A DNA stretch of 34,717 bases from a virus. The notes under the pieces are model-generated. The model made no database searches and was not told the DNA's origin. It saw only the letters and a list, made by a program, of their open reading frames with translations. The stretch covers positions 1 through 34,717 of IMG/VR virus record IMGVR_UViG_3300043119_000042; one strand, written 5' to 3'. Each line of letters begins with the position of its first letter. Positions within the stretch are counted from its first letter, which is position 1. The position numbers and the translations under genes are program-made. Shown piece after piece: positions 9,149 to 12,628 of the stretch.

Positions 9149-9353
9149 TTAGTGCATCCTTTGTTCTTTCGCGACGATCAATCTTCTCAAGTGGAACGTG
9201 TTCAAATGGTTCGCCAGTTGTGTGGTACATAGCAAACTCGGTCATGTGACCATTACGATCCGTCACTTTGATGCGGCGACAAGTGAAGCTGTCGTAAGTC
9301 GAAACTATTGTTTCGTATTTGACGATACCCATTACTAAGATTTCGCTAGCCAT
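9135..9353 (-). CDS. Hypothetical early protein
   Basis: The 72-residue protein seems beta-rich (SEILVMGIVKYETIVSTYDSFTCRRIKVTDRNG) with a charged acidic end (RRERTKDALSEDE). GGAGGAG lies nine bases before the ATG. Its start overlaps the DUF932 stop by one base and its end overlaps the SSB-tipped gene by 14, so it is firmly within the operon. I do not recognise a family. Confidence 0.6.
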   Translation of the reverse strand: MASEILVMGIVKYETIVSTYDSFTCRRIKVTDRNGHMTEFAMYHTTGEPFEHVPLEKIDRRERTKDALSEDE

Positions 9354-10186
9354 TAGTGAATCTCCTCCCAGAGTTTGTGTTGCATTGCTTTTGAGATTGC
9401 ATCTTCGCGATTGCGACGAGCAACTTCAGGGTTCTTTAGTTCTTTAGTGTGGCTGGACCAGTAGGTCATTGCATTGTACAGCGCCCACTTGTTGCTGCCC
9501 AATTGATTAGCTTCATCATGCCAAATAGAAAGCAATCTTTCCAATTGTTTCTCATTGGTCTTCTGATGCTGCACTTGATTTGTGAATGACTTGGCAATCG
9601 TTGCTTTGAAGAAAGTCTCAGCCATATCGTCAGTCACATTGGATACCATCCAGTCACGCCAGATGTGTGGCTGATTTACAAAGGTTTCCAAACCAAAGAT
9701 CATCTTTGCTGCACTGCCCTCGATGTTGACAGACTGCGTGTGTTTAAACTTAGATGATGCTGTCTTGCTCGCATTGGTGCAGCCATTCAAGCACCACAAG
9801 CGCAAGCCATCAGCAGCTTGACTGAATGCCCAACTACCATCATAGCTATTGAAGAAGCTGATGCGAAACTTAACGTAGTCACCGACCTTTGGTTCAACAG
9901 TAAGATCGTTGAACAAGATCTCGCCGCGCAACTTGCGACCATCTTCAATGACACTGAAGTTAGTCGTGAAGTCACGGCTGATGTTCGATGCTTTGACTGC
10001 ATCCATTAGTGACGACACCACATCATCATGCTTGATGATCTGATAGCGAGAGCCATGCACACCAAGCACAGTGTTGGTATCGGTTCGCATCACACACTTT
10101 TGATCGGGGATCTCATTGCCAAAGCGATCAAAGATTGGTTGAGTTTCAACGGGAAACTCATAGGCATTGCGTACTACGTCAAACAT
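9353..10186 (-). CDS. DUF932 phage/plasmid-like protein
   Basis: The start is ATG 10186, seven bases after GGAG; a frame to 10246 has no site. The 277-residue protein matches DUF932 (the phage/plasmid-like protein family) along its length. Recognisable parts are VLGVHGSRYQIIKHDDVVSSL near the start, GDYVKFRISFFNSYDGSWAFSQAADGLRLWCLNGCT in the middle, and the FKHTQSVNIEGSAAKMI block. Proteins of this family are common in phages and plasmids, and their activity is unknown. It is a proximal gene of the early operon, so it is probably made early and in quantity. Confidence 0.85.
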   Translation of the reverse strand: MFDVVRNAYEFPVETQPIFDRFGNEIPDQKCVMRTDTNTVLGVHGSRYQIIKHDDVVSSLMDAVKASNISRDFTTNFSVIEDGRKLRGEILFNDLTVEPKVGDYVKFRISFFNSYDGSWAFSQAADGLRLWCLNGCTNASKTASSKFKHTQSVNIEGSAAKMIFGLETFVNQPHIWRDWMVSNVTDDMAETFFKATIAKSFTNQVQHQKTNEKQLERLLSIWHDEANQLGSNKWALYNAMTYWSSHTKELKNPEVARRNREDAISKAMQHKLWEEIH

Positions 10187-10382
10187 TTTTATTCTCCACG
10201 TTGTTGAGGCCGCTGTCTTTGCGCCATTTGAAAAGAGTTGATTCACCTACGTCCAGCATTTTGGCTGCACGGCGAGTGCCATACTTGATGGACAAAAGAA
10301 TTGCTTGAGTCCTCACTGAGTCTGGCAATCCATAGTCAGGATTGTATGGCAGTATTTTCTTAGCGTCGAAGATTGGATTCAT
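10179..10382 (-). CDS. Small HTH DNA-binding protein
   Basis: The 67-residue protein has one helix-turn-helix at about residues 28-54 (AILLSIKYGTRRAAKMLDVGESTLFKW), of the transposase/FIS-like type. A strong GGAAGGA lies before its ATG. It is the first gene after the terminator at 10514-10542 and overlaps DUF932 by eight bases. This position is typical of an early regulator acting on the nearby promoter region. The target is unknown. Confidence 0.7.
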   Translation of the reverse strand: MNPIFDAKKILPYNPDYGLPDSVRTQAILLSIKYGTRRAAKMLDVGESTLFKWRKDSGLNNVENKNV

Positions 10383-11231: not shown

Positions 11232-11276
11232 TGAGTGTCAAGGGCGCGAAGCGGCGCAGCGTACCCTTGACACTCA
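11232..11276. repeat. Perfect 13-bp inverted repeat with GCGAAGC loop
   Basis: TGAGTGTCAAGGG (11232-11244) is repeated in exact inverted form at 11264-11276, with a 19-base loop that contains GCGAAGC (11246-11252). It lies between two early genes. There is no U-run in either direction, so it is not a standard terminator. As RNA it would form a long hairpin between the two cistrons, and as DNA it could be a protein-binding dyad. Confidence 0.85.
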
Positions 11277-11322: not shown

Positions 11323-11505
11323 TCATGCTACGCTCCTCTTTATGTAAACAATCTCCCATTCCCATTCTAACGGGATTCCGAAATCGTAATCCTCCACATA
11401 ACGCAATGCTTCTTCGTAGGATGCGTAACCAGCCCACTGGCTCATTATAATCTTAACAGGGTCTCCATTTGGATAATCTGTCCAATAGAATACTATGTTG
11501 TACAT
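11323..11505 (-). CDS. First gene of the early operon, small unknown protein
   Basis: The 60-residue protein is acidic and rich in aromatic residues (FYWTDYP, SQWAGYASYEEALRYVEDYDFG, LEWEWEIVYIKR). AGGAG lies seven bases before the ATG. It looks like a compact one-domain protein. Being the first gene after the control region it should be expressed immediately after entry, when phages often make small inhibitors of host proteins. The family is not recognised. Confidence 0.65.
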   Translation of the reverse strand: MYNIVFYWTDYPNGDPVKIIMSQWAGYASYEEALRYVEDYDFGIPLEWEWEIVYIKRSVA

Positions 11506-11537
11506 CTCATTCTCCTGCTTACAGACACAGACCTCCC

Positions 11538-11645
11538 GTGTCTTAGGATGTCATTCTGTGCAGGGATTGGTCGTGCTGAGCGAAGCGAGGGAATCGTCAA
11601 GGGAGTTTAGCGAAGCGGCGGCTGACCGAGCCACGCGCAAGACAC
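11538..11645. other. Long-range stem enclosing two GCGAAGC elements
   Basis: GTGTCTT (11538-11544) pairs exactly with AAGACAC (11639-11645). Inside it TTGGTC (11567-11572) pairs with GACCGA (11624-11629, one G-U). The enclosed part holds the GCGAAGC copies at 11580 and 11610. Nested helices at this distance suggest a folded RNA domain rather than a simple operator. Confidence 0.45.
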
Positions 11646-11671
11646 ACGGACCTGCACAAGCCGAATCAAGC

Positions 11672-11685
11672 AACCACCTGTGGTT
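11672..11685. promoter_or_regulatory. Short perfect dyad AACCAC-CT-GTGGTT
   Basis: Six bases on each side are exact inverted copies with only two bases between, too tight for an RNA loop but good for a dimeric DNA-binding protein. The phage encodes several small HTH proteins that could bind it. Confidence 0.45.
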
Positions 11686-11771
11686 ACAAGATAGACGATC
11701 AGGCGCGGAAGGGAGTATGTCGAGCATGGCGACCGAAGACGCAAACTGCCGACCCCCGACCACTTGGGAGC

Positions 11772-11795
11772 GGGGTTGACGACACATCAATCCCC
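11772..11795. other. Stem-loop GGGGTTGA / TCAA-T-CCCC
   Basis: Eight base pairs with one bulged T (11791) close a seven-base loop. An alternative stem CCCCG/CGGGG using the same G-run is possible, so the two folds exclude each other. Confidence 0.5.
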
Positions 11796-11858
11796 TGCCG
11801 CTAGGAGAGATCATCCGCACGGGGGTTTGTGTGTGTGAGTACCACCATTAGCGAGGAC

Positions 11859-11903
11859 ATAACCTGCCCACGCGAAGCGAAGCGAGCAACAGTGGGAGGT
11901 TAT
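11859..11903. other. Strong stem-loop with double GCGAAGC loop
   Basis: ATAACCT-G-CCCAC (11859-11871) pairs with GTGGG-AGGTTAT (11892-11903): twelve pairs with a single bulged G. The 20-base loop holds two overlapping GCGAAGC motifs. Confidence 0.65.
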
Positions 11904-11931
11904 ACCGCAGCGGGCCAGCCTGACGGCAATG

Positions 11932-11955
11932 TGTCGCTACGCGAAGCCAGCGACA
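11932..11955. other. Stem-loop TGTCGCT / AGCGACA with GCGAAGC loop
   Basis: Seven perfect pairs close a ten-base loop that contains GCGAAGC at 11941-11947, so the motif again sits in a loop. Confidence 0.6.
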
Positions 11956-11985
11956 GCATAGGTTGCTGTATATGCAGATGGCGAG

Positions 11986-12036
11986 CCTGATTCGCCGAGC
12001 CATCTTTCCACTTAAGGAAAGTGGCAGCGGATCAGG
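11986..12036. other. Two-level stem-loop with alternative pairing
   Basis: Outer CCTGAT (11986-11991) pairs with ATCAGG (12031-12036). Inside, GCCA-T-CTTTCC (11999-12009) pairs with GGAAAG-TGGC (12016-12025), ten pairs with one bulge around the loop ACTTAA. CCACTT/AAGTGG is a competing inner stem. Confidence 0.6.
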
Positions 12037-12060
12037 TGAAGGGTTGCAGAATCAAGGAGT

Positions 12061-12084
12061 GTATCCCACTTGGACAAGGGATGC
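12061..12084. other. Stem-loop GTATCCC / GGGATGC
   Basis: Seven pairs (one G-U) close a ten-base loop ACTTGGACAA. It follows the previous stem-loop after about 25 bases. Confidence 0.5.
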
Positions 12085-12096
12085 TCACCCGAAGGG

Positions 12097-12122
12097 CGGA
12101 GACTCCCTCTTTGGAGGCTCCG
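12097..12122. other. Stem-loop CGGAG-A-CTCC / GGAG-G-CTCCG
   Basis: Nine G-C-rich pairs with one A-G mismatch close a six-base loop. It is the last strong hairpin before the small terminase gene. It is not followed by a U-run, so it is not a standard terminator. Confidence 0.6.
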
Positions 12123-12171
12123 TTCATGAGTAGCCCGACCCGACGAAGGAGGGATGGCCCATCACTTCTTT

Positions 12172-12221
12172 TGTAACAATCGGTATTGTGAGTTGACAGG
12201 TTTTATGAGGGAGGGAATATG
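12172..12221 (+). promoter_or_regulatory. Weak promoter candidate with small dyad for the late operon
   Basis: ACAAT-CGGT-ATTGT forms a small dyad at about 12176-12189. It is followed by a perfect TTGACA (12193-12198). The -10 at 16-17 bases (GAATAT or AATATG) is poor, so promoter activity is uncertain. It lies about 30 bases before the first late gene. Confidence 0.3.
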
Positions 12222-12239
12222 GGGGGGATACAGGGGGGG
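12221..12239 (+). repeat. Paired G7 tracts before small terminase
   Basis: Seven G, then ATACA, then seven G, ending eight bases before the terS start codon. The second tract is in Shine-Dalgarno position. A second G-rich tract follows the gene at 12667-12680. Confidence 0.7.
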
Positions 12240-12247
12240 CTTCATAG

Positions 12248-12628
12248 ATGAGTAATGTGCCTGAGAAGCGTAAGTTAACTGCAAGACAGATGGCGCTGGT
12301 TGATGTGATGGTAGCAGAAGGACTGAATACAGCAGCCGCCGCAAGAGAAGCAGGATACGCAGAAGGTAAGTCAGGATATGTCACAGCAAGCAAGACGTTG
12401 AAGCTACCCCATGTGCAGCAGTATATGATGCAGAGGATAGCAGAGTCGTTGGGAACCAATGCTGCGTTTGCCGCTGCCAAGGTTATGAGGCTCGCGAATG
12501 GTGCTAAGAGTGAGTATGTTCAGCTCGAAGCGGCTAAGGATATTCTAGATCGTGCTGGGTTCAAGCCGATAGACAGGGCGCAGGTACAGGTGGCTGGTGA
12601 CATACGGGTTCACATAGACCTTGGTTAA
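12248..12628 (+). CDS. terS: Terminase small subunit
   Basis: The 126-residue protein has an N-terminal DNA-binding HTH (LTARQMALVDVMVAEGLNTAAAAREAGYAEGKSGYVTASKTLKLPHVQQYM), the typical opening of small terminases. A helical middle with ASKTLK and AAFAAAKVMRLANGAKSEYVQLEAAKDILDRAG is followed by a short beta-like end (AQVQVAGDIRVHIDLG). It forms a ring that recognises phage DNA and activates the motor. It is the first gene of the late operon, about 1.4 kb ahead of the large subunit. G-tracts flank it. Confidence 0.85.
   Translation: MSNVPEKRKLTARQMALVDVMVAEGLNTAAAAREAGYAEGKSGYVTASKTLKLPHVQQYMMQRIAESLGTNAAFAAAKVMRLANGAKSEYVQLEAAKDILDRAGFKPIDRAQVQVAGDIRVHIDLG

Follow-up and report, generated by a model that had tools for sequence, protein, structure and literature searches.

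A candidate Frpo-type three-way junction of single-stranded DNA beside the small terminase gene of a tailed phage

The window analysed here, a single virus record of 34,717 bases, contains at 12078-12142 on the + strand an asymmetric three-way junction, which was missed in an earlier sequence-only reading of the same DNA. Comparisons by sequence and covariance model strongly support that this junction belongs to the Frpo/ssi family of plasmid F. We consider it rather probable that it acts as a Frpo/ssi-type site, where RNA synthesis by the host RNA polymerase begins when the phage DNA is single-stranded or extruded; the product would be used for the leftward operon, for the priming of replication, or for both. 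The analysis shows the structure of the element, the DNA character of its fold, the homology with Frpo and a comparable geometry.

The junction lies in the stretch 11506-12247, around which the two arms of the phage genome diverge and where the cumulative GC skew also reaches its minimum. Terminase, T7-type portal, capsid, tail and internal virion protein are encoded in the right arm, an O-like replication initiator, a RecE-like exonuclease, a RusA-like resolvase and a dCTP deaminase in the left one. The stretch had been singled out as the only long gene-free one, and it is indeed the sole gap of that length between the divergent arms. It is bounded by the first gene of the leftward operon, a 60-aa ORF with an SD-like AGGAG before its ATG (11323-11505, - strand, start at 11505), and by the gene for the terminase small subunit (12248-12628, + strand, start at 12248; Pfam Terminase_2). 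No family could be assigned to the 60-aa ORF, which by analogy with Frpo is the presumed target of the transcript. RNA polymerase, DNA polymerase and primase were not found among the window proteins tested (18 scanned against PHROGs, no polymerase), hence the phage probably depends on its host for all three. The 1079-aa protein of the virion region had no match.

The alignment shows one shared architecture of the junction, in which a closing stem bears hairpins 1 and 2 and the joint is always TTCA; in most cases, an outer stem of the form GCGNN/NNCGC encloses it. The core in the window (12078-12142) scores 63 bits (E 2.5e-18) with covariance model R1, which was built from phage and prophage copies only, without any plasmid sequence. 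On the + strand, it is composed of the outer pairing of GGG (12078-12080) with CCC (12134-12136), the stem TGCTCA (12082-12087)/TGAGTA (12127-12132), hairpin 1 (CCC-GAA-GGG, 12088-12096) with a c(GAA)g DNA triloop, hairpin 2 (CGGAGAC...GGCTCCG, 12097-12122) and the joining TTCA (12123-12126). With DNA energies, the + strand of the window folds to exactly this junction (z -2.9), and the fold is absent on the - strand (z -0.45). Single-sequence DNA folds of other copies did not always return the junction. The outer stem P1, which is poorly formed in the window's own copy, consists of exact complements in 88 of 113 copies compared to 22% for permuted flanks. Because the first collection pattern fixed part of hairpin 2, only free positions count as evidence for covariation. 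The pair beside the GAG stem is CG in 28, GC in 20 and AT in 9 sequences with zero misfits, and the stem-closing pair is GC in 29, AT in 27 and GT in 1. Phosphoketolase genes, which were chance coding matches to the first DNA pattern, were removed; an antisense protein-coding reading was rejected, since the loops vary by single bases.

The loop types, the near absence of G.T pairs and the lack of an Rfam match favour folded DNA over RNA. Among 141 cleaned copies, the loop of hairpin 1 is a triloop in 95 (GNA in 82) and a tetraloop in 46; 43 of the tetraloops fall into the GNNA, GNAB or gCNNGc families, and just 10 are GNRA. The outer two pairs of hairpin 2 comprise 280 Watson-Crick pairs, one G.T and one mismatch across the copies. 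These tetraloops, like d(GCGAAGC), have been described as exceptionally stable in DNA (Hirao 1994 and Nakano 2002, as cited in PMC6479982 and PMC5090098). The sequence-only reading had linked the GCGAAGC repeats of the stretch to an unusually stable DNA mini-hairpin, which proved a good lead towards DNA folding, the conserved part being a folded-DNA element homologous to Frpo/ssi. The same reading had also offered a GOLLD/ROOL-like RNA. Such a structured RNA, or alternatively a leader RNA of the terminase operon, is improbable. It would be consistent with the stable RNA fold of the region (z -2.2 against shuffles, although as single-stranded DNA the stability is greater, z -3.5) and with the position of the junction upstream of the small terminase gene in the same direction. 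However, the Rfam covariance models (cmscan) gave no match for the element, loops of DNA type and almost no G.T pairs were found, the element is antisense to the operon it faces, and the homology with Frpo speaks against an RNA as well. Moreover, in a conjugative element of Bradyrhizobium that encodes ParB, an integrase and a relaxase-type protein (DUF3363), every copy is on the same strand although genes run both ways, i.e. the orientation is independent of neighbouring transcription. A match to 'sar' RNA on the opposite strand of sequence L160 (E 0.096) was regarded as chance.

The F promoters of the Frpo type are active solely on single-stranded DNA. When R1 was applied to reference plasmids, it detected two sites on F, 58104-58166 and 63492-63554 (E ~1e-13, 49 bits each), which are 89% identical to each other and situated on the T-strand that enters the recipient, 477 nt before ssb and 478 nt before the 64032 ORF, respectively. 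These are the positions described for Frpo2 and Frpo1, respectively, and the F homologues of the junction are functional promoters (PMC9849209). R100 also has two R1 sites, and R388 has two with weaker support, whose distances to leading-region genes of the other strand are 531 and 607 nt. In addition, a gokushovirus and the cultured Sphingopyxis phage VSN-002 were reached directly by plain BLAST from F Frpo (E 5e-5). The single-stranded DNA of F Frpo is strongly folded (z -4.8).

The geometry is comparable, too. In Frpo, the junction occupies the template strand, and a leader of ~480 nt separates it from the gene. In the window, 572 nt separate the junction from the first leftward gene (start at 11505); hence 11506-12077 corresponds to the Frpo leader. 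Two traits of Frpo/ssiD, homology with F Frpo and a position on the template strand upstream at similar distance, were found in the window. Among 43 other copies with clear neighbours, the left-neighbour gene is on the opposite strand in 31 (one-sided p 0.003, a nominal value that overstates the significance because of common descent among the copies, the counts being uncorrected for phylogeny; the neighbours of viral copies come from simple ORF calls). The distance to the left neighbour is mostly 250-640 nt, while right neighbours start closer and on either strand. A riboswitch-like leader of downstream genes was rejected, the orientation relative to neighbours being mixed and the motif mainly antisense to the left gene. 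Taken together, the window shares with Frpo1/Frpo2 (ssiD) the three-way junction, recognised by the model and by BLAST to phages, the relations of strand and distance, and the folding. Unlike Frpo, the window element resides in a phage beside a terminase gene, its leader is longer and without visible similarity to the F leader, and no promoter boxes were recognised: when the leader was inspected for a folded -35/-10 arrangement, TATAAC- and TTGAC-like pieces were seen in helices, with no correctly spaced pair. As a separate observation, a DUF932 protein is encoded in the junction-facing operon of both the phage (left arm, window 9353-10246, - strand) and F (leading region, 64438-65259), which is probably coincidence, since DUF932 occurs in 0 of 40 other motif-bearing phages.

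Copies of the junction are widespread. BLAST of the region revealed a 51-base match in a gokushovirus, the same piece was found upstream of the small terminase gene in relatives of that gene, and a pattern scan returned more than 100 viral contigs. R1 matches were obtained in Microviridae, tailed phages, alphaproteobacterial chromosomes and conjugative elements, and plasmids, where the copies adjoin genes for relaxase, partition and establishment. An alternative explanation would be a non-functional repeat hitch-hiking among mobile elements, comparable to REP sequences. Alphaproteobacterial genomes with the motif do have 1-14 scattered copies each, and its occurrence is sporadic, with hits at E 1e-6 in 10 out of 142 such genomes, but strict covariation, constrained loop types and constant geometry, as well as the promoter function of the F homologues (PMC9849209), make this extremely improbable. 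The CGTC/GTAG REP and Br-REP families were compared and are different. Some single cases are worth recording. In Bradyrhizobium nitroreducens (G001:C1), eleven junction copies, all on one strand, are located at 1.21-1.83 Mb and 6.36-6.49 Mb. Genes of the relaxase type, for ParB/KorB and for integrases accompany them there, and these regions look like conjugative elements; the GC skew is too weak to read the orientation of the copies relative to the replichores. Sphingopyxis phage VSN-002 (L435, 13785-14287) carries two oppositely oriented copies ~430 bp apart; a telomere resolvase is encoded close by, and the hypothetical gene annotated across both copies is maybe spurious. A weak match (E 7e-4) is present on the Ti plasmid of strain C58 (L416, NC_003065.3 140277-140330, - strand).

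How such a site could work in the phage can be outlined as follows. If the + strand became single-stranded, or was extruded from supercoiled DNA, 12078-12142 would form the three-way junction by means of GNA mini-loops specific to DNA, with further folding in the 570-nt leader on its left side. Host RNA polymerase would be recruited at the junction, as suggested by the homology with F Frpo, and RNA would start leftward on the + strand template. This RNA could be an early leftward message and/or a primer for second-strand or lagging-strand DNA synthesis; in this phage it may serve leftward transcription, post-initiation priming after the O-like protein, or both. We infer the recruitment of RNA polymerase, the single-stranded stage and the choice of output. 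Several points count against this scheme: the DNA that tailed phages inject is double-stranded, so that the single-stranded or extruded stage is an assumption, no spaced -35/-10 pair was seen in the leader, and only 16 of 70 related phages have the motif. PMC7736820 and a 1997 title cited there attribute to Frpo (ssiD) a double role on single strands, in transcription and in the synthesis of primers, with host RNA polymerase as the enzyme. A site for priming only, which starts complementary- or lagging-strand synthesis and drives no gene, is unlikely in our view. The priming attributed to Frpo in that source is in line with it, and so are the Microviridae, where all genes run along the motif strand with none opposite to serve (in those with a Phage_F capsid gene, the motif is on the coding strand in 5 of 5), such that only complementary-strand priming makes sense as its function there. 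Against a mere priming site stands the opposite-strand gene start at Frpo-like distance in tailed phages, conjugative elements and plasmids.

Coming back to a Frpo/ssi-type site, the occurrence of the family on tailed and on single-stranded-DNA phages suggests that phages use a Frpo-like trick to start RNA or DNA synthesis. With slightly more doubt than confidence, we propose that a large and so far unnamed family of single-stranded-DNA three-way junctions, with Frpo as one of its branches, extends over tailed and single-stranded-DNA phages, conjugative elements and plasmids, and that double-stranded-DNA phages could use such junctions as a switch that is on only when their DNA is single-stranded or extruded. 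Earlier accounts of Frpo in phages may exist beyond the open-access literature. Single-strand promoters have been described as the means by which conjugative plasmids switch on genes for anti-defence and establishment ahead of second-strand synthesis. With a structural definition that also covers phages, single-stranded-DNA phages and chromosomal conjugative elements, one could search mobile elements beyond the reach of BLAST with F Frpo for genes expressed early and for origins of the second strand, and in Microviridae outside the phiX174 group the junction is a candidate complementary-strand origin. It also raises the question of a folded single-stranded control state in a lambda-like replicating podovirus. 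Comparable systems are known. The sites ssi2/ssi3 of ColIb-P9 are likewise described as leading-region single-strand promoters, but ColIb-P9 (NC_002122) gave no R1 match, so that they do not belong to the same sequence family. In phage N4, promoters take the form of DNA hairpins that have CGNAG loops and extrude when the DNA is supercoiled; they serve its virion RNA polymerase, and no such polymerase was recognised in this window. The phiX174 primosome assembly site is likewise a fold of single-stranded DNA, contains GCGAAGC and lies between genes of a microvirus. An origin had been considered for the stretch; the idea of an origin or control site survives in the form of a Frpo/ssi homologue for transcription and priming on single strands, whereas the complementary-strand origin of phiX174, i.e. 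the primosome assembly site type of its F-G intergenic region, was not matched by the model.

A second element is situated between the junction and the terminase gene. An inverted repeat ACAAT-CGGT-ATTGT (12176-12189, + strand) is followed by TTGACA (12193-12198, + strand), and 12176-12198 looks like a promoter/operator-like site of the rightward (terminase) operon. Just before the gene stands a double G-run, G7-ATACA-G7 (12221-12239, + strand), also missed before. Such a double run was found within 200 nt upstream of the terminase gene in 71 of 71 sequences, window included, with runs of 5-7 G about 3-14 nt apart and TTGACA usually 22-26 nt before; in the subset with 24-25 nt spacing, most have a GTGACG..ACGTCAC-like palindrome just before TTGACA. 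The G-run region is possibly a late promoter, a G-quadruplex or packaging DNA, and the family-specific element 12193-12239 could act as promoter or packaging DNA; as a whole, this looks like the promoter/operator region of the rightward operon, maybe combined with packaging DNA. The junction motif, always on the + strand and at the same place just upstream of the gene, occurs in 16 of 70 terminase relatives with upstream sequence and is missing in the other 54, which have the terminase-side element without it; the two are therefore separate. This bears on a cos/pac packaging site recognised by the small terminase, another function suggested earlier for the stretch. The motif adjoins the small-terminase gene in several phage lineages and the G-runs are universal in these relatives, but the former is often lacking, the latter is a separate element, and the motif is common on plasmids and conjugative elements without a nearby terminase, which argues against packaging as its general function and leaves this explanation very improbable.

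The long folded leader from the first leftward gene to the junction (11506-12077, + strand) holds the five copies of GCGAAGC reported before for the stretch, at 11580, 11610, 11872, 11877 and 11941, those at 11872 and 11877 overlapping; one more lies outside at 11246. Within 11506-12247, five copies on the + strand and none on the - strand compare to an expectation of 0.07 from 2000 dinucleotide shuffles, none of which reached five. The stem-loops listed for the previously proposed chain exist, i.e. 11859-11903, 11932-11955, 11986-12036, 12061-12084 and 12097-12122. However, 12061-12084 and 12097-12122 are not independent hairpins, since 12078-12084 is part of the stem closing the junction and 12097-12122 its second arm. 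The hairpin 11859-11903 on the + strand (ATAACCTGCCCAC..GTGGGAGGTTAT, with ATAACCT..CCCAC against GTGGGAGGTTAT) has arms that co-vary in L107 and L003/L205, the + strand hairpin 11932-11955 (TGTCGCT-ACGCGAAGCC-AGCGACA) bears GCGAAGC in its loop, and 11986-12036 pairs GCCTGAT with ATCAGGT. As a whole, the leader is kept only in L107, L170 and L003/L205, and consensus folding of the whole leader with four relatives gave little, and no net, covariation support. Outside the stretch, a near-perfect hairpin GAGTGTCAAGGG..CCCTTGACACTC with GCGAAGC in the loop and TTGACA within the stem is located at 11232-11276, just upstream of a leftward 213-aa gene, and is also present in L003 at ~2059-2095. Finally, the module TCGTCAAG..GGGGTTGACGAC..CCGCTAGGA..TGTGTGTGTGAGT (window 11590-11840) is common to L203, L204, L207 and L208, phages without the three-way junction.
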